Below, piece by piece: positions 1 through 26,679 of a DNA stretch of 26,679 nt. Within the stretch, counting starts at the first letter, position 1. Each line of letters opens with the position of its first letter. This stretch comes from a virus. The stretch lies in the IMG/VR virus record IMGVR_UViG_3300018088_000004, positions 1-26,679 of that record, one strand, 5' to 3'. A model generated the notes under the pieces. The model worked only from the letters and a program-made list of their open reading frames with translations, had not been told where the DNA came from and did no database searches. The translations under genes were made by a program, and so were the position numbers.

Positions 1-1770
1 CACAAGGATGTCACCGACCTACTCACGGCAGGGGGCGCCTTGGAGCAGCTCGTGCCCTTGGACGCGTCTGAGGGGCCGGCAGGCTCCGAGACCAAGGGCA
101 AGCCCCAAAAGCCCCGCCTGACCCCCGCGGCGGCGGACGGCACCCCCGTCCCGCTCATCGTTGGCCATCACGGTGGCATCCGAAGTATCGTCGCGAATGT
201 CCTGACGGTCCTGACGACGGATGTCGACTGTGCCGACCTGCTCGAGTATGACTCGTTTCGGGAGGCGGTCGCCGTCCGACGCGACCCCCCTTGTCGGTCC
301 GCTGAGCGGCCGCCGGTGCGCGAGGGCAATGAGTGGTCTCCGGAGGACTCCACGCGGTTTGCCGCCTGCGTGGCCAGCAAATACGACCTGCACGTGACGG
401 CGGCCCAAGTCGAGGAGGCGGTCGCTACGGTGGCGCGCAAGCGCACGGTGCATCCGGTGCGCGATTGGCTGGCAGGGCTCAAGTGGGACGGCAAACCGCG
501 AATCCCGAAATTGTTTTCCACGTACTTCGGGGCCGCCGACAGCGCGTACCATGAGGGCATTGCGGTCTGCTGGATGGTCTCGGCCGTCGCTCGCGTGCAC
601 CAGCCGGGCTGCCAGGTCGACTACCTCATCGTGCTCGAGGGCAAGACGGGCACGGGAAAAACGACGGGCCTTGAGGCGCTTGCAGGCAAAGATTGGTTCT
701 CCGATACCGCGCTCGACATCTCGAGCAAAGACGGGCCGCAATGCCTGCACGGCATCTGGGTGCACCTATTCGACGAGCTTGAGGGGATTTCAGGGCGGGC
801 GGCGGTTTCGCGCGTCAAAAACTTCCTCAGCCGGCGCAACGACCACTATCGCCCGAGCTACGGTCGTGTCGCCCGCACGTTCCCGCGCCAATGCGTTTTC
901 GCCGCCACGACGAACGAACAGGAGTACCTGCAGGACCAGACGGGCAACCGCCGAATTTGGCCCGTGCGGTGCGGACTCGTCTACGTCCAGGACATCGAGC
1001 GTGACCGCGAGCAGCTATGGGCCGAGGCGGTGCATCTGTACCAGTCGGGCACCAAGTGGTGGCCCACGGGCGACCTCATAGCGCTCTGCAATCCCGAGCA
1101 AGAGCAGCGCACGAGGATTGACGCGTGGGAGACGGTCATCGAACGCTGGCTCGACAAGCCCACTGAAGTCTCGCTCGACGAACGCGGGCGGGCGACGAGC
1201 TACGGGCCCTTCGACATTTCGGAAGGGCTCACGACGGCAGATGTTCTCGTGCACGCGCTTGGCAAGCGCATCGGCGATTGCTCGAACGCCGACGAGCAGC
1301 GAGTCGGGACCATCCTGCGCAAGCTCGGCTATGAGCGCCGACGTCGCCGTAGAGAAGGCAAACCAGAATGGCGTTATGTAATGGTCCGATCCCAGGTTGA
1401 ACCTGGGCCTACCCCTGGGATCACCACCTGGGATCAGGGTTCACAGCCAAATTTACCTAATGTACAAGCGCGATCCCAGGTGATCCCAGGTAAATTGAAC
1501 AAACAAGCTACACACGGTGATGAAACGATTGGACCACATACATATGCGCACCCTTACCATGGAGAGAGTTGGAGATCGCCTAGAACACCTGGGAACCCGG
1601 GATCAGAACCAGATAAGATGACGAAATTATTAGAAAATTCGGCGGATCCGGGTTCAGATTCAGCGACTTGTGACCCAAGATCACCTCCGTCGAACCTGAG
1701 ATCACCAGACGAGCCCGATCTCGGCGACTGGCTCGACGAAGTGGGCATCGATCCAGAAAAAACTCATTGA
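1..1770 (+). CDS. VapE/VirE-family phage primase-helicase, 5'-truncated by window edge
   Basis: Replication protein with a superfamily-3-like helicase ATPase. The frame is open to base 1; the first residues (HKDVTDLLTAGG) resemble the end of a Toprim or primase domain, so the true start lies outside the window and the in-frame TTG at 40 should not be used. Visible motifs are Walker A EGKTGTGKTT (bases 637-666), Walker B HLFDELEG (about 763-786), a sensor-like CVFAATTNE and an arginine-finger-like TGNRRIWPV. These are typical of VirE/VapE helicases that unwind phage or island origins. The last ~130 residues are low-complexity linker encoded by repeated CCTGGGATCA-type DNA, and may be an origin rather than a protein domain. 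It ends with TGA at 1768-1770, followed by 650 bases without a convincing gene. Confidence 0.9.
   Translation, partial: HKDVTDLLTAGGALEQLVPLDASEGPAGSETKGKPQKPRLTPAAADGTPVPLIVGHHGGIRSIVANVLTVLTTDVDCADLLEYDSFREAVAVRRDPPCRSAERPPVREGNEWSPEDSTRFAACVASKYDLHVTAAQVEEAVATVARKRTVHPVRDWLAGLKWDGKPRIPKLFSTYFGAADSAYHEGIAVCWMVSAVARVHQPGCQVDYLIVLEGKTGTGKTTGLEALAGKDWFSDTALDISSKDGPQCLHGIWVHLFDELEGISGRAAVSRVKNFLSRRNDHYRPSYGRVARTFPRQCVFAATTNEQEYLQDQTGNRRIWPVRCGLVYVQDIERDREQLWAEAVHLYQSGTKWWPTGDLIALCNPEQEQRTRIDAWETVIERWLDKPTEVSLDERGRATSYGPFDISEGLTTADVLVHALGKRIGDCSNADEQRVGTILRKLGYERRRRRREGKPEWRYVMVRSQVEPGPTPGITTWDQGSQPNLPNVQARSQVIPGKLNKQATHGDETIGPHTYAHPYHGESWRSPRTPGNPGSEPDKMTKLLENSADPGSDSATCDPRSPPSNLRSPDEPDLGDWLDEVGIDPEKTH
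1387..1650. repeat. Iteron-like CCTGGGATCA cluster with AT-rich patch; candidate replication origin
   Basis: Clear copies of CCTGGGATCA or its complement lie at 1387-1396, 1414-1423, 1427-1436, 1471-1480 and 1481-1490. Half or degenerate copies occur at 1402-1407 and 1588-1605, and relatives such as GATCCGGGTTCA and CTGAGATCACC continue to about 1710. Orientation is mixed. The stretch 1601-1650 is strikingly AT-rich for this genome (for example GAAATTATTAGAAAATTC). Iterons beside an AT-rich unwinding element, inside or just after the replication helicase gene, is a known layout of phage and plasmid origins. The origin role is inferred. Confidence 0.55.
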
Positions 1771-2003
1771 AATTCAATAACTTACGACACCTGGGCTCGA
1801 ACGGTAGTAACCAAATGTTCACAACTACGCAAAGTTTTCCGGTGATCCCGGCCTCGCCTTCGAAGCCCGCGCCGGCGCGGCGCCACAGGCGCGCGCGCGC
1901 GGAAGCGCGCACGCGTCGCGCGCGCGCGCCCCAGGGAGAAGGTCCCCCTTGCGCGCGGGCGCGCGCAGGTCCTTCGTCCTGCACGCCCATGGGACGAGTT
2001 GGG

Positions 2004-2017
2004 TTGATTTGGATCAA
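2004..2017. promoter_or_regulatory. FNR/ANR-type palindromic box 1 (TTGAT-TTGG-ATCAA)
   Basis: The sequence TTGATTTGGATCAA matches the published FNR/ANR consensus TTGAT-N4-ATCAA at all ten defined positions. No good -10 element is placed for a class II promoter, so the site may bind another dimeric regulator. The match is seen directly; FNR control is inference. Confidence 0.45.
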
Positions 2018-2137
2018 TGGGTGTGCGCGTCGGGAAGTTGAGATCGCGGTCGGGGCATTTCCCTTCGCGCGTCTGCGCGCGCACGCGGGCGCGCGCGCAG
2101 GGCATGCCTCCCCTTCGTCCTGCGCGCGCGGGGGTGG

Positions 2138-2151
2138 TTGATTTGGATCAA
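2138..2151. promoter_or_regulatory. FNR/ANR-type palindromic box 2 (TTGAT-TTGG-ATCAA)
   Basis: Second exact copy of TTGATTTGGATCAA, 134 bp from the first, with the same TTGG spacer. It lies 22 bp upstream of the first 28-nt dispersed repeat and about 270 bp upstream of the gene at 2421. Confidence 0.45.
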
Positions 2152-2172
2152 GTGAGAGGCCCTCATAACGAT

Positions 2173-2400
2173 GGCAGCGCGGCGCCTCAAGTCCGCGAGG
2201 CGTTGCGCCACGCGATGCCCGTCGCTCGAACGGGAATCAAAGGCATTGCGGCGCCTGCAAGTTCGCGAGACGCCATGTACCGTTACGTTAGGATGTCACG
2301 TTTCATGGGATCAGAGGCAGCGCGGCGCCCAAGTCCACGAGCGCGCTACACGCATCCCGCAGGTAGCGCGATGGCATTGCGGCGCCTCAAGTCCGCAAGC
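2173..2400. repeat. Cluster of four ~28-nt dispersed repeats (family R, copies 1-4)
   Basis: Copies at 2173-2200, 2242-2270, 2316-2341 and 2373-2400 share GGCA(GC/TT)GCGGCGCC, then a 1-5 nt variable joint, then AAGTCCGCGAG or a close variant. Start-to-start spacing is 69, 74 and 57 bp. Three further copies lie at 6122-6236. Copies 1 and 4 are preceded by AT, forming ATGGCA, but the reading frame is not maintained between copies, so DNA-level function is likelier than coding. Confidence 0.8.
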
Positions 2401-2420
2401 GAGCCCTCGGAGCAAGACGG

Positions 2421-3254
2421 ATGATTGAACAAGACGGCAGTCATGCACACAGGCTTACTGAAGAGCAGATATCTACTGCTATCAGTGAAATCCGGGCGAA
2501 ATTCACTGAGTTGCCCACTGTCGCCTACAAACTCGCAGCGCGTCGGGATGCGAGATCAACGGATGAGCAATTCGCGGAAGCCCTGAAGACACTTCGGCGG
2601 CGCGGTCGAGTTTCGTGCGTTGCCGATGGCATGCATCGGAAAAATCGCATGCGGAAGTCGGACGCCGATGATACAGTGATCACCATGACTACTGTAGCTA
2701 TCGCGAAACCGGATGAACCCGAGGATGTTGAAGGAACCGGCGAGGAGCCGGAGGAGGCAGCGAGCGACGACATGGTGGACGAATTGGAGAAGGCCCGCAA
2801 ACGGGTTGAGGAATTGGAGCGGGAAGAGCGCGTGAAGATCGCAGCGCTCCGCAAAGAAGCCGACCGGCTTGAGGCGAGGCTGCGGCCACTGCCTGTTGGC
2901 ATGCATGGTGTGCAGTCTTCACTGGCGGAAGCGCAACCGGATGCGGCAAGTACGCCGCCGCGACGTGAAGCAGGTCGACCCACGAAGTCGGCAACTATGG
3001 CGAAGACTACGGACCAACCGCGCGCGAAGGGCAAACCAGGGCCTCGAGGACCTCGAGCGGACTCGCTCGTGTCGCGGGTGCTTACCTTTTTGGCGAAGCA
3101 TCCCAATAGCCGATCTGGTCACATCGCAGACGGGATAAGAGTGGAGAACACGGGCCTCGTGAGCTCGGCGCTGCAGGCATTGCGGAAGCGTGGAGCTGTA
3201 ACCAGTGAAGGCGATCGGTTCAACATGACGTGGAACGTGGCGAGGCGAGGCTAG
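2421..3254 (+). CDS. Putative DNA-binding protein: two winged-helix-like ends joined by a coiled coil
   Basis: 277 residues. Residues ~12-70 and ~213-273 both look like winged-helix domains, and each contains a similar recognition-helix/wing segment (ALKTLRRRGRVS near 54-65 and ALQALRKRGAVT near 250-261), suggesting an internal duplication. Residues ~117-155 form a strongly charged coiled coil (ELEKARKRVEELEREE). A Lys/Pro/Gly-rich linker (about 180-212) joins it to the C-terminal domain. The ATG at 2421 has GGAG at 2409-2412. It is the first gene after the repeat- and palindrome-rich region, so it could be the regulator binding there; that is inference. No named family was recognised with confidence. 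Confidence 0.75.
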   Translation: MIEQDGSHAHRLTEEQISTAISEIRAKFTELPTVAYKLAARRDARSTDEQFAEALKTLRRRGRVSCVADGMHRKNRMRKSDADDTVITMTTVAIAKPDEPEDVEGTGEEPEEAASDDMVDELEKARKRVEELEREERVKIAALRKEADRLEARLRPLPVGMHGVQSSLAEAQPDAASTPPRREAGRPTKSATMAKTTDQPRAKGKPGPRGPRADSLVSRVLTFLAKHPNSRSGHIADGIRVENTGLVSSALQALRKRGAVTSEGDRFNMTWNVARRG

Positions 3255-6783: not shown

Positions 6784-6838
6784 TGTCCTAATTTGCGCGG
6801 CGCGGGAGCGCTAACTGGCACGCTTCGTGTCGGCCTCG

Positions 6839-7350
6839 TTAGTCGAGGCTTTCGCTCGGGTCCCACACGTGATCCGGATCCGGCACGAACGCCATACCGC
6901 CGCCCCAAGCATTTCCTGGCGCATTCGCCGCAAGCGTAGGTTTGCCGGCCCACACGGCGACCAGCCACCCGCCGGTAACCTTCGCTCGACGTGCGCGAGT
7001 TTGGCCAGCTTGACCTGCACTTTTGCTGTTTTGATGCCATAAACGTCCGCGTGTGCAAGGCCCTGTCGTTGCCGCCCGACCCATACGCGCGGTGAATGAA
7101 CTACTGCAAGAGGTAGCGGCTCGGCACGGACAGCCCCCGTTTGCAGCGCGATCACTGTCATCCGATGAGGTTGTTTACACGTGGCTCTGCACTCTTCAGC
7201 GGTACAGTATTTCGACCAGCTTGTGGACATACCGCTGCCTCTGTCTTCAAAGGCCTCGGCATACGGGCGCCCATTGGCATCGACCTTGCTTGGAGGAAAC
7301 CATTTATAGAGCAAGGCCTCGTCAGGGATGAATTCTACGTCGAGGATCAT
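6839..7350 (-). pseudogene. Hypothetical protein, frameshifted near 6980-7000
   Basis: From ATG 7350 the frame encodes a soluble protein beginning MILDVEFIPDEALLYKWFPP, coding-like as far as KVQVKLAKLAHVE. Beyond it, the same frame turns Arg/Cys-rich and runs to 6811. The neighbouring frame instead continues convincingly (KVTGGWLVAVWAGKPTLAAN ... PDHVWDPSESLD) to a stop at 6839. The natural product therefore seems split by a one-base shift near 6980-7000. No slippery heptamer is evident, so a mutation or sequence error is likelier than programmed frameshifting. The start overlaps the upstream gene by 29 bases, implying translational coupling. Function unknown. Confidence 0.6.
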
Positions 7351-7879
7351 GATCGATTAGCCACTGCGCTATTGAATCCACAGGATCGGTGCTATGCGTC
7401 TTGAGTGACCCTTCAATAGATGCTCCGTCTCTTGTCTCACCGTAGAAGGTGATTCTCTTTTGGCGATCAGATGGAACGCTAATAAGCAATTCCGCATTTT
7501 CGTTACGCCAGTGAAGAGCCACTCCGCCGCCACCGCCCATTCCGACACGGGGTACGGTAGCGAGGGCCGCATCGTGTTTGTACTGTGCCCATGCGATGCG
7601 CGTCGCCAGTGCGCGCGCAATCAAGCTCGTCTCGTTTGAGGGAATGGGGTATTCGCTAGCCGATGCAAGATCATCCTCATCGGGAGTCACCCGAAGAAAC
7701 TCCTCCGTAATATCCGCGTCGAGGGCATGCCAAGGATCAATAATTCCTATTTTGCTATGCGGAGGTCTAATCTCAGCCACGCGAGGTACCTCGGGCAACC
7801 GCGGAATGCCGCGTAGGGGCTTTGCGCGCAGCGTAGGGGGCTGCGGAAGTACCAGGGACAAAGATGGGATCGGAAACAT
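7322..7879 (-). CDS. Hypothetical protein, minus-strand accessory block
   Basis: 185 residues. A Pro-rich N-terminus (about 1-40) is followed by a helical middle (SNETSLIARALATRIAWAQY) and a beta-rich C-terminus (VALHWRNENAELLISV ... KRITFYGETRDG). The last part resembles a small domain often found beside a partner gene like the one immediately downstream, with which it overlaps by 29 bases; this is recollection, not a search result. It starts three bases after the stop of the gene upstream. No toxin catalytic motif is visible. Confidence 0.65.
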   Translation of the reverse strand: MFPIPSLSLVLPQPPTLRAKPLRGIPRLPEVPRVAEIRPPHSKIGIIDPWHALDADITEEFLRVTPDEDDLASASEYPIPSNETSLIARALATRIAWAQYKHDAALATVPRVGMGGGGGVALHWRNENAELLISVPSDRQKRITFYGETRDGASIEGSLKTHSTDPVDSIAQWLIDHDPRRRIHP

Positions 7880-13946: not shown

Positions 13947-14726
13947 ATGGTAGCAACTGCAAATGCTCACGTGCGGCTGTCGGTAGGAACGCTTTTGCTG
14001 ACGCAAGACCGCGCCGAGCGAATGGTCGCTGACGCCGTCCACGATGAGGCGGACATCGCCGCGGCGCAGCTCGCCCGCAAAAAGGAGCGAGAGCGGCGCG
14101 CCGTCATCCTCGCGATGCTGCTCATCGCCGGCAAGCGGATGGCTGGCTCCGTGCAGCGAGCGCTGGTTCGAGGCCGGGCGCAGGCGCGCATCGCCGCAAG
14201 GGGACGGCTGGAGGCTGAGCTCGAAGCCGTGGGGCTCTCGGCGGCCATCATTGCAGCGCTGTCTAGGCACGCAGGCGCGAAGCGGGAACGGCTGGACGAC
14301 GACAAGCTGCACGCGCAGGCGGCGGCCGACTCGCTGGCGAGTCAGTGGCGCACCGTTGCGATTGCCGCCGCGCTGTCGGCCGTCGCGCGCGGGCGGGACC
14401 CCTCCGATGCCATTGCAGGTTCAGCGCGGCTCGTTCGGACGCGTTCGGACAGAACCGCCGAGACCGAAGCTGGCCAAGCCTACAACGACGAGCATTTCGG
14501 CGCGCTGGACGATGCCGTCCAAGCCGACGAGTCTTTCGCCGCCGCGCTGGAGGAGGCTCGCATCATGCGCGAGTGGTCTGCCCTCGCCGACGCGTGTCCT
14601 TCATGCGCGCCGCTCGATGGCACTCGTGTCGGACTTCCCGAACCGTTCCCGGGCGGGGTTGAACCGGGAACAATGCATCCCCGCTGCCGCTGCATTGCGG
14701 TTCTCGTCTCCGGAATGGTGCCCTGA
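13947..14726 (+). CDS. SPP1 gp7/Mu F-like head morphogenesis protein
   Basis: 259 residues. Minor head protein that joins the portal and the prohead in SPP1- and Mu-like phages. Long charged helices fill residues 20-160. The C-terminal domain has the family hallmark: W210 followed by ACPSCAPLDG (C217, C220) and GTMHPRCRC (H244, C247, C249), a probable zinc knuckle. Starts three bases after the portal stop. It shares TGATG with the next gene. Confidence 0.85.
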   Translation: MVATANAHVRLSVGTLLLTQDRAERMVADAVHDEADIAAAQLARKKERERRAVILAMLLIAGKRMAGSVQRALVRGRAQARIAARGRLEAELEAVGLSAAIIAALSRHAGAKRERLDDDKLHAQAAADSLASQWRTVAIAAALSAVARGRDPSDAIAGSARLVRTRSDRTAETEAGQAYNDEHFGALDDAVQADESFAAALEEARIMREWSALADACPSCAPLDGTRVGLPEPFPGGVEPGTMHPRCRCIAVLVSGMVP

Positions 14727-15214: not shown

Positions 15215-15522
15215 TGGAAGAAAGAACAGAAGAAGGCGTCACGAAGATCGAAATCGCCGTCGATGGTGCAAATGATCCATCGCGCGTGGCGCGTCTCACC
15301 GCCGAGCAGCTCAAAAAACTACGGATGAATTCTGGCATGGTCCACATCGTAATGGCTCGCAACATGCGAGACGGAGAAGTCGCCCACGAACTCGGTCGCT
15401 TTCCCGAGGAGCATGGGGCGCAGATGTTCGCCGCCAAGCTCGATGAGCGCTGGTGGTACGACGTTCGCATAGAACCACGCCAGGAATGCTACGAGCCGAG
15501 GACTATTGCGGAGCTTCGGTGA
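15214..15522 (+). CDS. Hypothetical protein in head cluster
   Basis: 102 residues from ATG 15214, with GGAGG a few bases upstream and TGATG overlap with the preceding stop. Acidic N-terminus, then VARLTAEQLKKLRMNSGMVH and a compact alpha/beta region (ERWWYDVRIEPRQEC). Function unknown. The stop overlaps the next GTG (GTGA), so translation is probably coupled. Confidence 0.6.
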   Translation: MEERTEEGVTKIEIAVDGANDPSRVARLTAEQLKKLRMNSGMVHIVMARNMRDGEVAHELGRFPEEHGAQMFAAKLDERWWYDVRIEPRQECYEPRTIAELR

Positions 15523-16022
15523 AAATCTACCTCGTTCGCCACTCCACTCCGGAGGAAGGATCGCCCGACGACGACGAAGAGGCCGATGCTGGGCGCGAGC
15601 TGACCGACGAGGGGCGTAAGATCGTCGAGTCGCTTGCCGAATGGATGCGCGACAAGGGCGAGTTCCCCACGGTCATCTACACGAGCCCGACGCAGCGCAC
15701 GCGCGAGACAGCCGAAATTTTGCAGAAGGAGCTCGGCGTCCCTGTGCTTCGTGATGACGTTTCGATCGGACCTCATTCGTCGATTCGCGGGCGCATCAAG
15801 GCGCTAGCGGATGATGACAGCATCACGCGCCCGATGATCGTGTCGCATCATGAGTCGATTTCGCACGGGCTGAGGGCACTCGGGGCACAGCCGGACGAGA
15901 CGTATCATTTGCCGCTTGCCGAGGGCGAACTTCGAATCTTGAAGGTCAAGCGCAAGGGCCCGAAGATTCTGGAGCATCGGCGCGTCATGCCGAGCAAGCT
16001 TGGCAACGTGGATCACTATTGA
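15519..16022 (+). CDS. Histidine phosphatase (SixA/phosphoglycerate-mutase-like)
   Basis: 167 residues from GTG 15519, with GGAG upstream. The N-terminus KIYLVRHSTPEEG is the catalytic motif of the histidine phosphatase superfamily; the usual RHG is RHS here. TSPTQRTRETAEIL (55-68) supplies the second phosphate-binding Arg (R60), and VSHHESIS (109-116) the second catalytic His (H110). It would remove phosphate from a phosphohistidine or small phosphorylated substrate; SixA-like members act on phosphorelay proteins. Its location between head genes is unusual and its target is unknown. Confidence 0.8.
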   Translation: MKIYLVRHSTPEEGSPDDDEEADAGRELTDEGRKIVESLAEWMRDKGEFPTVIYTSPTQRTRETAEILQKELGVPVLRDDVSIGPHSSIRGRIKALADDDSITRPMIVSHHESISHGLRALGAQPDETYHLPLAEGELRILKVKRKGPKILEHRRVMPSKLGNVDHY

Positions 16023-17184: not shown

Positions 17185-18297
17185 ATGGCTGGCGAAACCC
17201 TATCCACCATTCTCAATGCACTGTCCCAAGTCATGGCGCCGGACCTATACCGGCAGTGGAACCGCACCACGTATCTCCTGCGGATGCTCCAAGCCCGTAC
17301 GGGAGCTATCACAGATGGCATCGGGAAAAACTGCGCGTTCGATGTCGAATTCACCGGCGCGACCGCGCAGACCGTCGCTGAAGGCTCGGACGTTCCGGCG
17401 AGCGAATTCGCTCAGGACATCAATGAGCCAATGCTCATGCCGTGGGCAACCTATCGGACGTCGTTTCAGATTTCAGAGCAGGAAGTCGACGCGGCGCGCA
17501 CGAGCGTTGGAACCGCCGATGCGCTGCGGGATCTGTTCGGTGCTCGTCTGCTGAGCGCGAATGCCATTCTCGCGCGGCAGATCGAGAGCGACATGCTGAC
17601 TGGGACCGGAGTCGATGGCAACGGAAACCCGACGCTCATCGGCGTTTTCGGCGGGGCACTGACCGCCAGCGGCGCCTACGGTGGCCTCAGTCCGGCCACG
17701 TACTCAGAGTGGGCATCCACGCAGCTCACGAATGGAGGCACCGCCCGAACGCTCACGCCTGCCCTGATGGCATCGGCGGACCAATTGATTTTCACGGCCG
17801 CGTCCCTTCCGTGGAATGCAATCGTGACCAGCGCTGGTGTCGTGTCCAAGTATGAGCAGTTTTTCACGACTGGTGCTGCATTCGGAACGCAGCAACCGCT
17901 CATCCGAATGCAGGATAACCCGGCAAGCCCGCAGTACGGCATGGGTGTGCCGAACGACCCGACAATGCAGCTCACGAATCTGTATTGGAAGGGTCAGCCT
18001 GTCGTCCGAAATCCAGTCGCGCCCACGGGAAAGATGGCCTTCCTCAACACGGATTTCATCAAGATCAAGTACCTGCCGCATGTCCCGACGCGGAACGAAA
18101 TCGAGTTCCTCGAGAACATCGGTCTGCAAGGCAGCACCGGCGGAAATCAGGTGATCCAGGCAACGGGACTCCAGGCGCGCATCGTCGAACTTGGGAAGAC
18201 CGGAGATTCACACAAGCTGAGCGCTCGCATCACGCTTGCCGCCGCGTTCGTGCGACGCAACGCGATGGCGATCATTCAGGACATCAGCGAGACGTAA
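17185..18297 (+). CDS. Major capsid protein
   Basis: 370 residues. Main shell subunit. AAAGGAG at about 17168-17174 lies some ten bases before ATG 17185, a strong site for an abundant protein. The sequence has the HK97-fold pattern: N-terminal helices (ETLSTILNALSQVMAPDLY), E-loop-like region (IGKNCAFDVEFTGATAQTV), spine-helix segment (ALRDLFGARLLSANAILARQ) and a C-terminal beta-rich part (SARITLAAAFVRRNAMAIIQ). Recognised from order, size and these patterns. Confidence 0.8.
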   Translation: MAGETLSTILNALSQVMAPDLYRQWNRTTYLLRMLQARTGAITDGIGKNCAFDVEFTGATAQTVAEGSDVPASEFAQDINEPMLMPWATYRTSFQISEQEVDAARTSVGTADALRDLFGARLLSANAILARQIESDMLTGTGVDGNGNPTLIGVFGGALTASGAYGGLSPATYSEWASTQLTNGGTARTLTPALMASADQLIFTAASLPWNAIVTSAGVVSKYEQFFTTGAAFGTQQPLIRMQDNPASPQYGMGVPNDPTMQLTNLYWKGQPVVRNPVAPTGKMAFLNTDFIKIKYLPHVPTRNEIEFLENIGLQGSTGGNQVIQATGLQARIVELGKTGDSHKLSARITLAAAFVRRNAMAIIQDISET

Positions 18298-18361
18298 TCC
18301 GAAGAGGCGTGTGCTGCGTTTCGTGCGTGGCCGCGCAAGCCACGAAAGGAATGCAAAGCAT

Positions 18362-19054
18362 ATGAGTACTCAGGAGCCCCAGGACTTCTATCCGCAAGCA
18401 GATCAGCCGTTTGCCGCGCCTGCGGAATATCTGGAAACATCGCGCGAGACGATCTGGTTCAATCCCACCGATAAGGACTGCGTGCTGGATGTTCATATCG
18501 GCACGACACCCTGCTACAGCAAAGCGGCGCAGGAGGCGTGGCGCAGAATGCGCCCCGAGCAGAAGTGGGAAGCCAGGACCGGCAGACGACGGTACGTGAT
18601 CAAGGCGGGGCAAACGAAGGCGATTCCGCGCGACTTCGATCTTGAAATTCAGCAGACACAATGCCTCGAAACGAGCTGCTTGCAGCGGCCACTGTACTGC
18701 ACTGACCCGAGCCATCATCGCATTGTGGTGGCCGGACTGGGCCCGCAACTAGTGAATCGAGGATGGCAGGAAGTTCCGCGGCTTCACCCATCGCTCGACA
18801 CCCGAGCTGCCCAGACAGAGCAAGCCATGCAGGCGGCTGCGCAAGCCACCGTGGCCCACCAAAAGGCTGCGATGGATCTCGCAAATGCCAACTTGCAGCT
18901 TGAGGTGGCGCAGAAAGAAATTCGCGAGGCGAACGAGGCGCGCCGCGCCGCGGAGCGTACTGCCGAGGAGGCAACGCGGAGGCTCGGCGAGCAAATGGCC
19001 AAACCGGCGCAGCCGCAGGGGGGTGCGCCGCCACCGCAACAGAAACGTCAATAG
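18362..19054 (+). CDS. Post-capsid family protein 1: NPT-KD domain, Cys/His cluster, coiled coil
   Basis: 230 residues from ATG 18362. Residues ~28-140 hold an unrecognised domain shared with the genes at 19670 and 20049: RETIWFNPTDKDCVLDVHIG, then RRRYVIKAGQTKAIPRDFD. It continues with a C101/C106/C113 plus SHH (118-119) cluster that suggests zinc binding. Residues ~150-212 form a long Ala/Glu/Arg coiled coil, and the tail is Pro/Gln-rich. It sits just after the major capsid gene, where head-fibre, decoration or connector proteins occur. A CGTGGC/GCCACG hairpin (18326-18344) lies just before its ribosome site. Confidence 0.7.
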   Translation: MSTQEPQDFYPQADQPFAAPAEYLETSRETIWFNPTDKDCVLDVHIGTTPCYSKAAQEAWRRMRPEQKWEARTGRRRYVIKAGQTKAIPRDFDLEIQQTQCLETSCLQRPLYCTDPSHHRIVVAGLGPQLVNRGWQEVPRLHPSLDTRAAQTEQAMQAAAQATVAHQKAAMDLANANLQLEVAQKEIREANEARRAAERTAEEATRRLGEQMAKPAQPQGGAPPPQQKRQ

Positions 19055-19364: not shown

Positions 19365-19561
19365 TGGCTTGGTACAAGACGAGAATGCACGAGCCGGACG
19401 GACGCGTGTTTCACGCGCTCGCCGGCTCGCCGGATACCGCGCCTCAGATCGTCTATGCGTGCGGCTTTCCGGTATCGTTCCACGACATCGCGGTGCCGCC
19501 TCCTCCGGAGGAAATGCGTTGCACGAGGTGCAGCGCGAGAATAGACTCCGCCGCATGCTGA
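19364..19561 (+). CDS. Small protein with CxxC zinc-ribbon-like end
   Basis: 65 residues from ATG 19364 (TGATG overlap). Begins MAWYKTRMHEPDGRVFHALA. Ends with PPPPEEMRCTRCSARIDSAA followed by C, a CxxC pair with another Cys, resembling half of a zinc ribbon. Length and position suggest a structural or assembly accessory protein. No homologue is named. Confidence 0.55.
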   Translation: MAWYKTRMHEPDGRVFHALAGSPDTAPQIVYACGFPVSFHDIAVPPPPEEMRCTRCSARIDSAAC

Positions 19562-19731
19562 CCGGCGACCCTTTCATGCCCCATTTCAGCAACCGCTATT
19601 GGCTCTCGCTCGGTTTCGTGGGGCTGATGCTGCTGGGGCGTTCGGTCAAGCAGCGAACGGAGGAGGACCGTGGAGAAGACGACTCGGGAGACGATTTGGC
19701 ACAACCCGACGTCGAAGGATGCACTCCTTGA
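19555..19731 (+). CDS. Small single-pass membrane protein candidate
   Basis: 58 residues from ATG 19555, which overlaps the previous gene's end. A hydrophobic segment, RYWLSLGFVGLMLLG, could span a membrane, followed by an acidic tail (EEDRGEDDSGDDLAQP). ATG 19576 is an alternative start. It overlaps the next gene by 62 bases in another frame, long for a phage, so its C-terminal part is doubtful. Function unknown. Confidence 0.4.
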   Translation: MLTGDPFMPHFSNRYWLSLGFVGLMLLGRSVKQRTEEDRGEDDSGDDLAQPDVEGCTP

Positions 19732-20038
19732 CGTCGGTCGCGCTGGCAAGCGGCGTTACGTGATTCGGGCCGGGGATACGCGAGCAATCCCGAAGGAGTG
19801 GGATCGCGAAGTTCGGAAGGCGGCAGTAGAGCTCGCATTAGATCTCCGCAAGCGTGGTGTGCAGGATCTTACGTTCCTTGATCCTGCATATGCACTTGAG
19901 TCCCAAATTGCGAGAATACGTCAGAAAATGAAGGCCGTTCTCGTGAAGGCCATCTTGGATCTTGTGGTTGCCGGACGACTGATTGAACAGGCAAAGCGCC
20001 GAATGCTCGCAAAGATCAAGGGCTGCGCTTCACAATAG
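19670..20038 (+). CDS. Post-capsid family protein 2: short NPT-KD domain protein
   Basis: 122 residues from GTG 19670, with GGAGG at 19659-19663 six bases upstream. Residues ~5-50 repeat the domain of its neighbours: RETIWHNPTSKDALLDVGRA, then RRYVIRAGDTRAIPKEWDRE. The insert between the two motifs is missing and so is the Cys/His cluster. The rest is helical (ELALDLRKRG and an Arg/Lys-rich C-terminus KAKRRM). It is a compact paralogue of the genes at 18362 and 20049. Confidence 0.7.
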   Translation: MEKTTRETIWHNPTSKDALLDVGRAGKRRYVIRAGDTRAIPKEWDREVRKAAVELALDLRKRGVQDLTFLDPAYALESQIARIRQKMKAVLVKAILDLVVAGRLIEQAKRRMLAKIKGCASQ

Positions 20039-20048
20039 GAGGAGTTCT

Positions 20049-20858
20049 ATGGCTGCACCCGTCATGGAATATGATGAATCTGAGCATGAGACCAAGTGGC
20101 TAAATCCTACAGATCGGGATGTCGTTCTGGATCTTCATATTGGGACAAATCCGTTCTACAGTAACAATATGAAACGGACGCTAAATGCGCTCAGTCCAGA
20201 ACAACGTAGAGAGAGCATCACCGGCCTCAGACGCTACATTTTCAAAGCAGGCGATACTACGTCGATGCCTCGAGAGTTCGATCGCGCAATTCAGCAGACA
20301 CGCTGTTGTGAGAACGGATGTGGTTCGAACCCACTATATTGCGATGACCTGAGTCATCATCGCGAGGTTGTCGGCGGCTACGGACCACAACTGATCAACC
20401 TCCGTTGGAAAAACCGGCCTGTCCTGCACGCATCATTCAGACAACAGAGCGATGATGATGTTAGGGCGGAACTGAACCGCACTCATGCTGCTTGGCCGGC
20501 TCCTAAGCTCGCGCCTTCGAATCAACCTCCATTCGATGAGCAGAAACAATCAGCGCAGAAAAAGCTGATCGGGTTGGCACTGGAAGAGTGGTCACACGAC
20601 CAGTGGCGGGGTCACTATCCGTCGCGCCCACCTCCTACTGTTGATCTTCCGAAGGACTATGTCAGTGCTGCATGGCAGTCGGTTCGGTTATGGCTTCTTC
20701 GGAGGCGCGCTGGTGTCATTTTGCGGGATGTAGCATCTAGCCGATTGAAGACCATATCGATTTCGCTCGGCAAAACAGAAGCAGCTCACCGGGCACGCCA
20801 TTTGGCCAACAGAACCATCGATCGAATCAGCGAGCTAATGAAGCCGCATGAAGGCTAG
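20049..20858 (+). CDS. Post-capsid family protein 3: NPT-KD domain with Cys/His cluster, low-GC
   Basis: 269 residues from ATG 20049, with GGAGG (20038-20042) upstream. The shared domain reads ETKWLNPTDRDVVLDLHIG, then LRRYIFKAGDTTSMPREFDR. It keeps the Cys/His cluster (C86, C87, C91, C98, H103, H104) of the first paralogue and adds a unique C-terminal half without long coiled coil but with helical basic stretches (RLWLLRRRAGVILRDVASSR). Base composition is visibly lower in GC than the surrounding head genes, suggesting separate acquisition rather than recent tandem duplication. Confidence 0.7.
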   Translation: MAAPVMEYDESEHETKWLNPTDRDVVLDLHIGTNPFYSNNMKRTLNALSPEQRRESITGLRRYIFKAGDTTSMPREFDRAIQQTRCCENGCGSNPLYCDDLSHHREVVGGYGPQLINLRWKNRPVLHASFRQQSDDDVRAELNRTHAAWPAPKLAPSNQPPFDEQKQSAQKKLIGLALEEWSHDQWRGHYPSRPPPTVDLPKDYVSAAWQSVRLWLLRRRAGVILRDVASSRLKTISISLGKTEAAHRARHLANRTIDRISELMKPHEG

Positions 20859-20897: not shown

Positions 20898-23800
20898 ATG
20901 ACCGACGTCTCCGCCTGCCTCATCGTCAAGGACGACCCTCGAGTCGTTCAGGCGCTCACTTCGATTCGTGCCCACGTCGACGAGATCGTGGTCGTCGACA
21001 CGGGCCGCTCGATGGATGAATGGCCCACTGAGGAAGATCAGCTCTACTATGAGGGGCTTGCCGACAAGCTCCAAGTCTTCAAGGAATGCAACTTCCCTGA
21101 TGGCGACATCGCCGACTTCTCGGCGGCGCGCAACCGCTCGTTCGAACTCGCGACACACGATACCGTCATGTGGCTGGATGCCGATGACGAGGTCGTCGGG
21201 CTGGAGCACCTGCAGGATGCCATCGCGTGGTGCGAGCGCGAGGCGGCTGGGCGGCCGTGGCGGGCCCGCTTCCCCTACGAGTACGAGTATGACGAGCAAG
21301 GCGTATGCATCACGATGCAATCCCGAGAGCGCATCGTGGCACCCAAGGCCGCCTTCCACTGGGTGCGCCGGGTGCATGAGGGACTGACGGCCAAGCAGCC
21401 GACTGGATGGATCACGATTCATCCACCGTTTCCGATCATCTGGAAGCACCGAGCAAAAGGCAGCGAATCGAAGGAGCACAACCGCCGCAACTTGCGGATC
21501 TTGCGCGACGTCGCCAAGCTCGCCCCCGACGACATCGACGCGAAGACCGCGTTCGACCTCGGGGTGGCGCAGTACCGGAATGGTGACCATCTCGCCGCGA
21601 TTCACTCGCTGGCATGGTGCGCGGATCGCTCTGACTGGACCGAGGAGAAGCTGCTCGCCTGCATGCATCTGGTCGAGCTTTACAGCTTCTACCCGGGAAC
21701 CGAGCGGGCCGAGGCGTGGGCCCTCCGCGCCGTGGACACTTGCCCGGAATGGCCAGACGGCTATTTCGCGCTCGCCAAGATTGCCTTCAGCGCGGCTGAG
21801 AAGCACGGTGCCGACGAGCGGCGTCAACTGGAGCGCGCCGCCCACTACGCGGCCCAGGGGCTCGCGTGCGCCGAGCCGGACGCGCTGGGCACCCGAAACC
21901 CCCAGGACCGCGCGCGCAACATCCCGTGGATCCTGCACGAATCGTTGCGGCGGCTTGGTCGTCTCTCCGAGGCTCTTTGCGCAATCCGGTTGTGCACCGA
22001 CGACAACCCCCAGGTGCGGCTGCGACAGCGTGACCTCGAGTTCGAGACTGGGGAACGGCGCGCGACGATCGACATCGCGATCGTGTGTGGCGAGAGTCCG
22101 GAGCGCTTCGACCCACTGACCGTCGCGACCAAAGGGATCGGCGGGAGCGAGACCGCTGTCATTGAGGTCGCCAAGCGACTCGTCACCGGTGGGGCGCGGG
22201 TGCGCATCTTCTGCGAGTGCGAGAACCCCGGGCTCTACGACGAGGTCGAATACCACTCGATGAGCGACCTCGCCGCCGTCGAGTCATGCGAGCTCCTGAT
22301 CGCGTGGCGCAAGGCGACACTCCTCGAGCTTTTGCCGGCGCGCGTGAAGTGGCTTTGGTGCCACGACAAGGAGCCAAACTACTACACGAAATGGGCCGGC
22401 CAACTGGCGGACCGCGTGCTCGTGCTCAGCGAATGGCACAAGCAGCACATGGCCGAGCTCTTCCCGGAGCTGGCGTTCAAGCTCTGCGTGACCCGCAACG
22501 GAATCGATCTCACGCGGTTCGATGTCGTCGTAGAGCGCGACCACAAGCCGCACAAGGCGATCTGGTCCTGCTCGCCCGACCGAGGCCTTGAATGGCTCCT
22601 CGGCATCTGGCCGACGATTCGGGCCCGCGTGACGGACGCCGAGCTGCACTGCTTCTACGGGTTCGTCAATTTCGACCCCGATGACGGGCGCGCCGTCCGG
22701 ATCCAAGCGCTCGCCGCCACGCTTACGGATGAAGGCGTCATCATGCGCGGGCGCGTCGACCAGAGGACGCTGGCAGCCGAGATGCTCAGCGCAGGCGTGT
22801 GGCTCTATCCGAGCTGGGCATACGACCGCCCGTTCCATGAGACCTCGTGCATCGGGGTGATGGAGGCGCAGGCGGCCGGACTCCGAGTCGTGGCGTCGGG
22901 TTGGGGCGCGCTTCTGGAGACGGTACGCGTCGGACATCTCATCCTCGGCGACGACGTTCGCACCGCCGAGTACGAGACCGAATTCGTCGAGGCGACCGTC
23001 GCCGCGATGACCGATGGTCAAGATCATCTACGGGCGCTCTCCCAAAGGGCCGCCCGCGAAGCTTTCAGTTGGGACGGTGTCGCGGCCGAGTGGTCGCGTT
23101 GGGCGGTCGAGGATGTGCGGGAGCATCCCGTGGCATCGATTCGGCCCGAGCGCTCCGACGAGCCCATCGTGCACATGGTGCTCGGTCCCCAGGGAAGCGG
23201 CGGCCTGGTGATGGATGTGCGCGCCGGCTTGGGCGACGAGGCGATGGGTGGCGGCAGCCGCGCTGGCTTCGTCCACCTCACCCGCGCCTTGGCGAGGCGT
23301 GGGCTACGAGTGCGCGCTTTTTCGACTTTCGCCGATGCCTACGTAGAGCAGGATGGCGTGGAGTGGATCCGGCTCGACCGCCTGCGTGCGCATGGCACGC
23401 CTGACGTAATGTTCGCCTTCCACGACACATCCGTCCTCGAGCTCGCGCAGCCGGGAGTGCTGCGGATCGGCTCACACCACAGTTATCAGCCGTACCTGCA
23501 TTTCCAGCACACCGACGTCAACACGGCGCCGAGCGAGCACGCAATGCGGTTCCTGCGTGATCGGTTCGACCCGGGGACGCCATGGTACGTGCTCCCAAAC
23601 GGCGTGCCCAAGATGTCGGTCGACCGAAAACCGGTGCCCGGGCGCGTTCTCTACCACACGAGCCCCGAGCGGGGGCTGCGTTTGCTCCTGCGCGTCTGGC
23701 CGAAGATTCGGGCGAGTGTTTCACGTGCAACGCTCCATGTGGTCGGGCCCGTGGAGGAGCTTATAGCGGCAGCAAGCGCCCCGTCGTGGAGAACCAGCTT

Positions 23801-24260
23801 GGCTGATGGGCTGGCAGATGCGCACCTCGCCGGCGGGATCAAACTTCTCGGGCGCCTTCCGCGTTCCGAGGTCCTCCGGGAACTCGGGGAGGCCTCGATT
23901 TTCGCCTTTCCGTGCTCGCCACCGGCCCCCTGCGAGACGTTCAGCCTGTCGACGATGGAATGTTGCAAGCTCGGGGTTCCGGTCGTTCTCGCCCCCGCCG
24001 ACGCGCTTGAGTCGATCTACGGGGGGACAGTGCGGATGACTCCGTCCCCTGTTCGAGAGCATCTGGACGAGTTCGCAGCGGCCGTCATCGACGTCCTTCA
24101 GGACTCCGATGAACAGGCCAGGCTTGCGGAGACGGGTCGTCAGCTCGCCAACAAGTTCACTTTCGAGCGTGAGGCCGAGGTGCTGGACGGCATCATCAGG
24201 AAGCACTTGCGACCGAAGAAAGAAGGATATGGCGCATCCGCTGAACTTCGCCAGAGTTGA
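20898..24260 (+). CDS. Tri-modular glycosyltransferase (GT2-like, TPR-like, two GT4-like domains)
   Basis: 1120 residues. Domain 1 (~1-190) is GT2-like: ACLIVKDDPRV, DEIVVVDTGRS, and W92-L-D-A-D-D-E98 holding the DXD metal site. Residues ~200-370 are helical, repeat-like and TPR-like. Domain 2 (~390-740) is GT4-like: GIGGSETAVIEVAK (GGSE 415-418), RNGIDLTRF, SPDRGLEWLLGIWP near 559, and the acidic end FHETSCIGVMEAQAAGL. Domain 3 (~770-1105) repeats this: MGGGSRAGFVHL at 783, LPNGVPKM, SPERGLRLLLRVWP near 922, and CETFSLSTMECCKLGVPVV. It would transfer up to three sugars to virion, host-surface or DNA acceptors. Such a large fused enzyme is unusual in a head cluster. Confidence 0.85.
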   Translation: MTDVSACLIVKDDPRVVQALTSIRAHVDEIVVVDTGRSMDEWPTEEDQLYYEGLADKLQVFKECNFPDGDIADFSAARNRSFELATHDTVMWLDADDEVVGLEHLQDAIAWCEREAAGRPWRARFPYEYEYDEQGVCITMQSRERIVAPKAAFHWVRRVHEGLTAKQPTGWITIHPPFPIIWKHRAKGSESKEHNRRNLRILRDVAKLAPDDIDAKTAFDLGVAQYRNGDHLAAIHSLAWCADRSDWTEEKLLACMHLVELYSFYPGTERAEAWALRAVDTCPEWPDGYFALAKIAFSAAEKHGADERRQLERAAHYAAQGLACAEPDALGTRNPQDRARNIPWILHESLRRLGRLSEALCAIRLCTDDNPQVRLRQRDLEFETGERRATIDIAIVCGESPERFDPLTVATKGIGGSETAVIEVAKRLVTGGARVRIFCECENPGLYDEVEYHSMSDLAAVESCELLIAWRKATLLELLPARVKWLWCHDKEPNYYTKWAGQLADRVLVLSEWHKQHMAELFPELAFKLCVTRNGIDLTRFDVVVERDHKPHKAIWSCSPDRGLEWLLGIWPTIRARVTDAELHCFYGFVNFDPDDGRAVRIQALAATLTDEGVIMRGRVDQRTLAAEMLSAGVWLYPSWAYDRPFHETSCIGVMEAQAAGLRVVASGWGALLETVRVGHLILGDDVRTAEYETEFVEATVAAMTDGQDHLRALSQRAAREAFSWDGVAAEWSRWAVEDVREHPVASIRPERSDEPIVHMVLGPQGSGGLVMDVRAGLGDEAMGGGSRAGFVHLTRALARRGLRVRAFSTFADAYVEQDGVEWIRLDRLRAHGTPDVMFAFHDTSVLELAQPGVLRIGSHHSYQPYLHFQHTDVNTAPSEHAMRFLRDRFDPGTPWYVLPNGVPKMSVDRKPVPGRVLYHTSPERGLRLLLRVWPKIRASVSRATLHVVGPVEELIAAASAPSWRTSLADGLADAHLAGGIKLLGRLPRSEVLRELGEASIFAFPCSPPAPCETFSLSTMECCKLGVPVVLAPADALESIYGGTVRMTPSPVREHLDEFAAAVIDVLQDSDEQARLAETGRQLANKFTFEREAEVLDGIIRKHLRPKKEGYGASAELRQS

Positions 24261-24672
24261 TGACCGAATATTTCGGGGAGGTCAACCAAAAGGAATCGAG
24301 TGGGATTCTCTCGTTTATGAGGGCATTCGTTCGGTTCTAAAGCTCAACGAGCTGACCACTGGCGATGATGCGTCCGCATGTTCCAGTCGAGGACTTATAC
24401 TGATAGAATTCACAATTACGGACGAGGTTGCACAGAGTCAGATAGACGAAGTTTCTGTCTTCGACAGAATCGATGACATACTTGATTCTGGCGGTCCTTG
24501 GTATGCACATTGCACCGAAGGTAAGGATCGCGTCGGCATCGTAGTTGCTCGTTATCGCGTCCGTCGTCAAGGCTGGTCCAAAGAGAAGGCTTGGAACGAA
24601 TGGGTGGCGATGGGATCACACGGATACAAAGGTCTCGTGAAAGCATGGCAAGATTGGCAACCTGGTAAATAA
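24229..24672 (+). CDS. Dual-specificity/tyrosine phosphatase (PFA-DSP-like)
   Basis: 147 residues from ATG 24229 (GAAGG upstream), overlapping the glycosyltransferase end by 32 bases. Starts LNFARVDDRIFRGGQPKG, the opening of plant-fungal-type atypical dual-specificity phosphatases. The active-site loop HCTEGKDR (H94, C95, R101) is the CX5R signature and is intact. It would dephosphorylate protein or inositol phosphate substrates. GC content is clearly lower than neighbours and codons differ, indicating a recently acquired cargo gene. Target unknown. Confidence 0.85.
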   Translation: MAHPLNFARVDDRIFRGGQPKGIEWDSLVYEGIRSVLKLNELTTGDDASACSSRGLILIEFTITDEVAQSQIDEVSVFDRIDDILDSGGPWYAHCTEGKDRVGIVVARYRVRRQGWSKEKAWNEWVAMGSHGYKGLVKAWQDWQPGK

Positions 24673-24677
24673 ATCCA

Positions 24678-25187
24678 ATGGCATATTCCGAGCAGGACCG
24701 AACGATTATTCGGCACTTCTTGGGATACCCTGCCATCTTCCTGCAGGCCGAGCCGCGCCTTGAAGCTGCGATCACGGCAACGCAGTCGGTCGCTGACGGC
24801 GGCGGTCGCCCCGACTCGAACACCGAGAACTACATCCTCGGCCTCGTCTACGGCACCAATCCGCAGACCGGCTCGGCGATCACGCTCGGGCCTGCGTCGC
24901 AAACGAGTACGCCCCGAGCGATGCCGGCAACGCAAGGGCTGCTCTCCATCGAGCAGCAAATCGCGAGCCTGCGACCGATCACCTTTGTGACCTCCGCCGA
25001 CAAGGGAGACGCCGTCATCGATGCCGCCCGCGGGATGGCCCTGCTGCGCGCCGAAGGGCGACGCCTGGTGAACGCACTCTCTCGCATGCTCGCGACCAAG
25101 CCGCGGGCCGACGTTTTCACGGGCGCAGACGTCGGGCCAGAATCGCCGCTGTTCTTCCCCGACCAACCCGCACCTTACGGCTGGTGA
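24678..25187 (+). CDS. Putative head-tail connector/neck protein
   Basis: 169 residues. Begins MAYSEQDRTIIRHFLGYPAI and contains a helical core (EQQIASLRPITFVTSADKGD ... MALLRAEGRRLVNALSRML). This layout resembles conserved hypothetical phage proteins located between capsid and tail genes, probably head-completion or connector subunits. Identification is from remembered pattern and position, so moderate confidence. GC and codon use match the head cluster, unlike the phosphatase before it. Confidence 0.55.
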   Translation: MAYSEQDRTIIRHFLGYPAIFLQAEPRLEAAITATQSVADGGGRPDSNTENYILGLVYGTNPQTGSAITLGPASQTSTPRAMPATQGLLSIEQQIASLRPITFVTSADKGDAVIDAARGMALLRAEGRRLVNALSRMLATKPRADVFTGADVGPESPLFFPDQPAPYGW

Positions 25188-25188
25188 G

Positions 25189-25884
25189 ATGGAAACTAAG
25201 TTCGTCCACGATCATCCGATTGCAGGCTTCTACGTGGTCGACCCGGAGACGGGCGGCTACAAGCACACGACGCACACGTTTTTCGACCACGAGCCGATGC
25301 TCTCGGCGTGGGGCAAGGCGATCAAGGAAGGCGACATCGCGATCGACGTTGGAGCCTGCTTCGGAAGTTTCACGCTACCGGCGCTCGCTCTCGGAGCTAC
25401 CGTCATCGCCGTCGAGCCGTCGACTGACGGGTTCGAAATCTTGGAAGCCAACGTCGGAGTCAATGGATGGCAGGGCCGATGCCAAGTGGTGCGGTCGGTG
25501 CTGTTCGACGGAACGCCATACCCCCAAGCTTTGCTGCAAGAGGTCTTCGGCCATCACTATCCAGGAAAAGACTTCGTCTTCGAGACGCTTGACGGGCTCG
25601 TCGCGCGGCTGGAACTCAAACGCGTCGACCACGTCAAGCTCGACGTCGAGGGCGCGGAGCTCGGCGTGCTTGAGGGAGGTCATGCAACGCTCGAGCGTTG
25701 GCACCCAGCCCTCTACATCGAGGACCACGACGGCATCAACAGCAACCCAGACTGCGTTGTCAGTTCCTATCCCGCATCGATTCGGAGCTCAGAGCGCATC
25801 CACGAGATGTTGCAGGGGCTCGGATACAACATCGAGGTGATGCCACACTCTTGCTCGCGCAAGTTCATCGTGGCGCGGAGGTAA
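25189..25884 (+). CDS. FkbM-family SAM-dependent methyltransferase
   Basis: 231 residues. Rossmann methyltransferase with SAM-binding motif I AIDVGACFGSFTLPAL (51-66), acidic motif II VIAVEPSTDGFEIL (72-85) and the FkbM-type post-motif HVKLDVEGAELGVLEGG (148-164). FkbM enzymes methylate sugar hydroxyls or amides. It begins one base after the connector gene's stop. Together with the glycosyltransferase upstream it suggests synthesis of a methylated glycan. The acceptor is unknown. Confidence 0.85.
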   Translation: METKFVHDHPIAGFYVVDPETGGYKHTTHTFFDHEPMLSAWGKAIKEGDIAIDVGACFGSFTLPALALGATVIAVEPSTDGFEILEANVGVNGWQGRCQVVRSVLFDGTPYPQALLQEVFGHHYPGKDFVFETLDGLVARLELKRVDHVKLDVEGAELGVLEGGHATLERWHPALYIEDHDGINSNPDCVVSSYPASIRSSERIHEMLQGLGYNIEVMPHSCSRKFIVARR

Positions 25885-26263: not shown

Positions 26264-26440
26264 GTGCGGATCAAGCCTCAGCAGGAGCGAGAGCGGAACG
26301 TGCCGGTGCTCAACGCCGAATCAGCCGCGCTGGCACACGAGATCCTCGACGTCGACGGCGAGGCGTATCTGCGCTGGCTTGAGACCGGCGAAGGCGAGGA
26401 TCCGTGTCAGGTGTGTCCCCAGCGCCCCTTTTCGCAATAG
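26264..26440 (+). CDS. Small hypothetical protein with C-terminal CxxC
   Basis: 58 residues from GTG 26264, three bases after the previous stop. The product is protein-like (NAESAALAHEILDVDGEAYL then RWLETGEGED) and ends with PCQVCPQRPFSQ. Its last 34 bases overlap the convergent zinc-finger gene on the other strand. There is no strong ribosome site, so translation may depend on coupling. No function recognised. Confidence 0.45.
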   Translation: MRIKPQQERERNVPVLNAESAALAHEILDVDGEAYLRWLETGEGEDPCQVCPQRPFSQ

Positions 26441-26679
26441 GCCTTGGTGCCCTGAGAGCGCGCGGTTCGCGACGACGTCCGCGTTGCCAGATTCGTGCAG
26501 CCAGGCGCAGAGCAGGGCAAAAGAGGCTTCAGCGCCCTGTCGCCGCCCTTGTGTTCTTCGCAATAGGCCTTGGTGCCTCTGAGGCGCGCCTGATATGACG
26601 ATCCCCACGTCGCCAGGTTCGTGCAGCCAGGCACCGAACACGGCATCCATGGTATTAGGGGGCCGCCCTTGTGTTCTTC
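26407..26679 (-). CDS. Repeated Cys/His zinc-finger-like protein, 5' end beyond window
   Basis: Minus-strand frame open to the right edge. It encodes a ~40-residue unit of the form PC(S)xPGCTNLAT, then G-T-K-A-Y-C-E. Two units are visible (CSVPGCTNLATWGSSYQ and CSAPGCTNLATRTSSRT), plus the end of a third (EEHKGG) at the edge, in the same frame. Unit 1 ends CEEH, giving a C-x4-C ... C-x2-H metal site; unit 2 ends CEKG, losing the His. ATG 26646 is internal to the open frame, so the true start is probably outside. Resembles the Cys-rich N-terminal module of HNH endonucleases. It reads against the head operon. Confidence 0.55.
   Translation of the reverse strand, partial: EEHKGGPLIPWMPCSVPGCTNLATWGSSYQARLRGTKAYCEEHKGGDRALKPLLPCSAPGCTNLATRTSSRTARSQGTKAYCEKGRWGHT
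26431..26679. repeat. Tandem ~120-126 bp DNA repeat at right edge
   Basis: TTCGCAATAGGCCTTGGTGC occurs at 26431 and again at 26557 (126 bp), and the lead-in CCGCCCTTGTGTTCTTC recurs at the right end (26663-26679), 120 bp later. Both full units also share TTCGTGCAGCCAGGC. It encodes the repeated Cys-rich units on the minus strand and continues beyond the window. Confidence 0.8.

Follow-up and report, generated by a model that had tools for sequence, protein, structure and literature searches.

A fused GT2-TPR-GT4-GT4 glycosyltransferase behind the capsid gene of an uncultured phage and its putative role in virion-protein glycosylation

The IMG/VR virus record IMGVR_UViG_3300018088_000004, a stretch of 26,679 bases (hereafter the window), carries within its head operon, on the + strand, the genes of a glycosyltransferase (GT) and of an FkbM-family methyltransferase (Table 1). 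Our analyses make it likely (probability roughly 0.7) that the two constitute a virion-protein glycosylation system acting on a head protein. This reading is preferred because the N-terminal half of the GT, a GT2 module with a tetratricopeptide repeat (TPR) domain, is homologous to glycosyltransferases of proteins and peptides, because the gene recurs behind capsid genes in many phages, and because its active sites are intact.

Results

Architecture and active sites of the glycosyltransferase

The original prediction had described a GT2-like DXD site, two GT4-like modules and a downstream FkbM gene, all co-directional, which the Pfam and TIGR matches and the intact motifs bear out; the TPR domain between the GT2 and first GT4 modules (about residues 191-385) was absent from it. 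In the Pfam scan two GT4-type stretches lie far above the cut-off (Glyco_trans_1_4, 1.6e-21), the PF00535 GT2 stretch (residues 16-113) scores 22.7 bits, just below the cut-off of 23.3, the TPR match is weak, and there is no match to the GT41 family. Among the PHROGs, phrog_13126 (beta-1,4-glycosyltransferase) spans residues 15-301 and phrog_2170 (glycosyltransferase) matches the first GT4 module. An AlphaFold2 model built with 32 viral sequences has a mean predicted local distance difference test score (pLDDT) of 86.7 across the 1120 residues and a predicted template modelling score of 0.66, so that each module is better determined than its position relative to the others; its strands and helices follow the order of a GT-A fold up to about residue 185, helical repeats (188-384), a GT-B fold (392-742) and a second GT-B fold (757-1104). 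The two GT4 modules, which are 25% identical to each other, have PimA and MshA among their fold matches. The protein has no membrane-type segment, its highest 19-residue mean hydropathy being 1.24.

Module profiles recovered the GT2-TPR-GT4 order in all 28 viral homologues, which argues that the architecture did not arise by chance. Among the viral proteins profiled, the third module, i.e. the second GT4, is fused only in the window GT and in its counterpart in L006, the closest relative; in four others (L007, L008, L011 and L029) it stands nearby as a gene of its own. By a fusion-type argument, this pattern suggests that the modules act together.

When checked for degenerate active sites, which the original prediction had named as grounds against it, the GT proved to have intact and conserved catalytic residues in all modules. 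The DXD motif is D94-A-D96-D97, and D94, D96, D97, H160, E161, H184, R197 and N198 of the GT2 part, together with E418, H489, D490, R562 and E648 of the first GT4 module, are identical in 28 of 28 sequences; the WxDxDD stretch was itself a search pattern, hence its constancy is partly built in, whereas the other residues lie outside any pattern. Both GT4 modules combine a GT-B fold with the E-x7-E motif (E648-x7-E656 and E1013-x7-E1021). The second Glu of this motif in the first GT4 module is replaced by Lys in 12 of the 28 sequences and is Glu in the window GT; in the second, neither Glu residue varies among the six sequences compared.

Kinship with protein and peptide glycosyltransferases

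A profile of the 32 viral proteins matches the glycosyltransferase domain of GmaR (1.9e-43, positions 3-193), SunS (2.3e-29) and ThuS (1e-22), and the last two are also fold matches of the AlphaFold2 model (TMt 0.58-0.59); with the window GT alone as query, GmaR was the sole match of this kind (4.3e-7). Many further profile matches are to generic or designed TPR proteins, and show merely that the region is TPR. In common with the GmaR/SunS type, the window GT has a GT2 (GT-A) module with a DXD motif, TPR helices directly after it, and an invariant His-Glu pair and His (28/28 sequences). The GT2-TPR half is thus homologous, on sequence and model comparison, to the flagellin glycosyltransferase GmaR and to SunS/ThuS, whose acceptors are bacteriocins, and transfer to a protein side chain is predicted for it.

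The related systems differ in what accompanies this half. SunS, which is prophage-derived, and ThuS are peptide S-glycosyltransferases that act on bacteriocin cysteine and, like the window GT, pair GT2 with helical repeats, but lack a GT4 fusion. OGT and SPINDLY, recovered as a fold match, likewise combine TPR with a GT-B fold acting on proteins, but belong to GT41, whereas the GT-B modules of the window GT are GT4. GmaR, the Listeria flagellin O-GlcNAc transferase and anti-repressor, shares the N-terminal GT2 followed by TPR, but has its anti-repressor domain at the C terminus (PMC9638930), where the window GT, encoded in a phage head operon, has GT4 modules. The GmaR GT domain moves N-acetylglucosamine (GlcNAc) onto flagellin, with its TPR domain proposed to recognize the substrate (PMC9638930), and for FlmG flagellin binding by the TPR domain was shown (PMC7591256). 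We regard the TPR domain as the best clue to the function of the window GT.

Recurrent position behind capsid genes

Relatives were retrieved by GT similarity alone, independently of the capsid. Used singly as queries against viral contigs, neither the GT nor the capsid protein gave matches, whereas an alignment-based search succeeded. The records with the GT number 35 (33 from IMG/VR, two from GenBank). The SU10 capsid family is present in 19 of the 35. In 14 of the 17 IMG/VR records with an SU10-type capsid gene, the GT is encoded on the same strand, 489-1201 bp past the capsid gene, the remaining three being arranged otherwise, so that the neighbourhood search suggested earlier places the GT 0.5-1.2 kb after the capsid gene in most such phages. 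In GenBank MW202718 it follows the capsid gene by 580 bp, and in MW202497 it sits between terminase and portal. A split GT2-TPR-GT4 gene likewise stands between terminase and portal in L003 (3472-7791), with a gene annotated groEL separating its two parts.

In L026 the GT follows a capsid gene of a second type (phrog_14242, 9.5e-49), and so it does in L020, L023 and L028 as judged by N-terminal similarity only. Among 32 control records with GT2-TPR but mostly without a GT4 match, the capsid family was found in one (L051), where the GT again stands shortly after the capsid gene; these contigs are shorter, making this a weak control. Distances between GTs vary together with those between capsid proteins (14 pairs with a capsid identity of 26-80%; Mantel r 0.87, p 0.0001), which shows a long association and not, by itself, a function. 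In large-genome relatives the GT stands near collagen-like or tail-fibre genes, likewise encoding virion proteins. In L007 a tail-fibre protein with collagen-like Gly-rich repeats (1-3048) is encoded immediately upstream of the GT and is a plausible O-glycosylation target.

FkbM, g24678 and the phosphatase

Downstream of the GT, a dual-specificity phosphatase, g24678 and the FkbM methyltransferase follow in this order, all on the + strand. The FkbM protein conserves the S-adenosylmethionine motif DVGA...G and the KxDVEGxE motif of its family. An FkbM match occurs in five of the 35 relatives' records, many of which are fragments, and the GT and FkbM are found together again in L008 and L013; tblastn of FkbM against GenBank phages gave no match. 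Flagellin glycosylation islands contain FkbM enzymes (PMC4875605). Two BFVD entries of uncultured Caudovirales named 'Methyltransferase FkbM' (A0A6J5M7M7 and A0A6J5SUQ0) match the GT model, a hint that GT and FkbM may occur fused.

In L006 (identities 50% for the GT, 65% for g24678 and 44% for FkbM; capsid orthologue 1e-158) the order is that of the window, i.e. g16441, capsid, g18236, g19086, three-module GT, g24678 and FkbM, with neither the phosphatase nor the genes of 19369-20858. A second FkbM-like methyltransferase (6825-7454; DVGSHCGSF ... DVLKCDSEGTE) stands directly before the FkbM orthologue of L006. The g24678 gene, termed 'connector-like' in the original prediction, had no family match in Pfam and further family scans, and its predicted model, from two sequences, has a pLDDT of 35, which gives the connector label no backing.

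The phosphatase gene, whose start (24229) overlaps the end of the GT gene (24260), has a GC content at third codon positions (GC3) of 0.456, compared with 0.803 for the GT; GC3 is 0.456-0.582 for the phosphatase and the genes of 19670-20858 (0.513 for 19983-20858), against a range of 0.64-0.80 in the GT and the genes from terminase to capsid. The phosphatase was therefore rejected as a cassette member, being absent from this position in L006 and low in GC3, and is probably a late, compositionally foreign insertion. The conserved set is thus the GT and FkbM around a head-operon gene, the phosphatase being an addition; the earlier placing of the GT and FkbM in the head operon holds.

Table 1. 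Features of the glycosyltransferase region and the capsid gene (positions in the window)
Feature	Position	Strand	Basis
GT2-TPR-GT4-GT4 glycosyltransferase, 1120 aa	20898..24260	+	Pfam, PHROGs, fold model, module profiles
GT2 (GT-A) module, residues about 3-190	20898..21467	+	PF00535; GmaR and SunS matches; D94/D96/D97, H160/E161, H184
TPR domain, residues about 191-385, all-helical	21468..22052	+	Model secondary structure; profile match to TPR proteins including OGT; module profile
First GT4 (GT-B) module, residues about 391-742	22068..23123	+	Pfam, module profile; E418, D490, R562, E648
Second GT4 (GT-B) module, residues about 756-1105	23163..24212	+	Pfam, module profile; E1013-x7-E1021
Dual-specificity-type phosphatase	24229..24672	+	Y_phosphatase2 2.4e-11; intact HC-x5-R (HCTEGKDR)
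g24678, conserved head-operon gene between GT and FkbM	24678..25187	+	65% identical in L006
FkbM-family methyltransferase	25189..25884	+	PF05050 8e-16, TIGR01444 2.1e-19, both over cut-off
SU10-like major capsid protein	17185..18297	+	PF17236 2.9e-7, over cut-off; phrog_9953 major head protein 2e-15

Discussion

The reading that we prefer, glycosylation of a virion protein, would operate in the cytoplasm of the infected cell. The TPR domain would dock on a head protein, which could be the major capsid protein or one of the small proteins encoded nearby, for instance g14726 or g19086, and the GT2 module would put a first sugar on a side chain, with Ser/Thr as the likeliest residue. A second sugar would then come from the first GT4 module and perhaps a third from the fused second one, after which FkbM would O-methylate the glycan, providing a methyl cap. 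We infer the head-protein acceptor, the Ser/Thr linkage, the order of additions and the placing of the methyl group on sugar. The original prediction named the Thr-rich protein at 14726 as one possible target and suggested that a defined trisaccharide could be made without other enzymes; both are speculative, as donors, acceptor and sugar number are not readable from sequence. A broader version, that a widespread capsid-linked GT2-TPR-GT4 lineage glycosylates the major capsid protein or its decoration partner before or during assembly, with one polypeptide in the window, a fusion of the initiating and both extending transferases, building on the capsid subunit a short glycan that FkbM methylation finishes, we put forward tentatively, as an idea somewhat more doubtful than not.

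Several points weigh against virion-protein glycosylation. Neither flagellin motifs (within 10 kb) nor FkbM motifs were found in the surroundings of the 80 bacterial GT2-TPR loci searched, so that a link to flagellin is unsupported there and the proposal of a protein acceptor rests on distant characterized homologues. The co-variation of GT and capsid is also expected under plain vertical inheritance of the genome, and gene neighbourhood can mirror the timing of expression, not the substrate. Methylation is not a constant part of the system, given how few relatives' records have an FkbM match, and a glycan on virion proteins is putative, being predicted from the genes of an uncultured record.

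The principal alternative is that the GT remodels the host surface, changing lipopolysaccharide, capsule or teichoic acid so that superinfection is prevented or receptors are altered, a role that the original prediction had offered beside decoration of the virion. The GT4 modules do resemble PimA, MshA and exopolysaccharide GTs, and alteration of the host serotype is known for phage-encoded GTs (PMC12619734), but the lack of a membrane-type segment, the linkage of a GmaR/SunS-kind GT2 to TPR, and the location in the head operon beside the capsid gene make this unlikely and leave virion self-decoration, with its homology, placement and active sites, as the part of that proposal to be retained. 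Less probable again is that a polymeric host protein (flagellin, pilin or S-layer) becomes glycosylated during infection, as by the bacterial GmaR and FlmG; although the closest solved relative is GmaR, no host-protein gene is nearby, the bacterial GT2-TPR relatives have no flagellin motif near them, and the post-capsid position, kept down to 26% capsid identity, fits a virus-encoded target better.

Sugar modification of phage DNA bases would have precedent, in that DNA hypermodification is an activity of several phage GTs (Pyle 2024, as cited in PMC12619734). It seems very unlikely here, since the enzymes to which the GT2-TPR half is related in sequence and fold have peptides and proteins as substrates, and since no base-modifying enzyme was recognized among the window genes tested, in a record that may be a fragment. 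We think it just as improbable that the GT, the phosphatase and the methyltransferase are morons with no relation to one another, brought into one operon by chance. The phosphatase, with its absence from L006 together with the stretch 19369-20858 and its GC3, like that of the genes of 19670-20858, below those of the GT and most head genes, does answer to such a description; the GT, g24678 and FkbM, however, keep their order in L006 despite identities of 44-65%, and the GT recurs with FkbM in L008 and L013.

Phage particles are usually regarded as bare protein. Capsid glycans have, however, been reported for mycobacteriophages, where they change antibody recognition, and the kind of system that we propose is therefore not new. 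Mycobacteriophage-encoded GTs, which in cluster O lie downstream of an O-methyltransferase, modify the capsid and tail tube (Freeman et al. 2023, as described in PMC11256854, PMC11600133 and PMC12619734). According to these accounts the mycobacteriophages, like the window, encode their own GTs, but as several separate genes, which in Maravista lie near the 3' end of the genome, whereas the window has one fused GT2-TPR-GT4-GT4 protein after the capsid gene and an FkbM-type methyltransferase. Another related system is that of the Manatee Spring phage MW202718 (ctxSa4), in which the GT2-TPR-GT4 gene (annotated beta4glucosyltransferase) behind the SU10-type capsid gene is followed by further GTs and methyltransferases; it differs in lacking the fused third module and in having no FkbM match in the record. 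To the extent that the literature could be searched, three things are new here: the fusion of the modules, an initiator of GmaR/SunS type encoded in a phage head operon, and the repeated occurrence of the gene behind the capsid gene; we found no published link of such a GT to a capsid gene, which is weak evidence given limited coverage.

If virion-protein glycosylation is correct, sugar-coated capsids would be common, with a GT family adjoining capsid genes in many uncultured phages whose capsids are down to 26% identical, and, on the broader version, there would be a general capsid-sugar system beyond actinobacteriophages. A GT beside a capsid gene could serve as a gene marker for choosing culturable phages, and the single-chain GT is a possible tool for glycoengineering.

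Other features of the window

The genes preceding that of the GT include those of a VapE-type helicase, a terminase-like protein, a portal, a Mu-F-like protein and the SU10-like capsid protein, the last being a candidate acceptor or a neighbour that marks the head operon. A SixA-like histidine phosphatase (15453-16022; PF00300 1.4e-14) also lies inside this operon. Three genes (18236-19054, 19670-20038 and 19983-20858) have in common a small domain, WxNPT..D..LD....RRYVI+AG.T..IP..FD, which is present as a single copy in L006 and looks like a duplicated head-operon domain. At the end of the record (26321-26679, - strand) there are tandem copies of a zinc-finger-like Cys/His motif, CSxPGCTNLAT...GTKAYCEEHKG.

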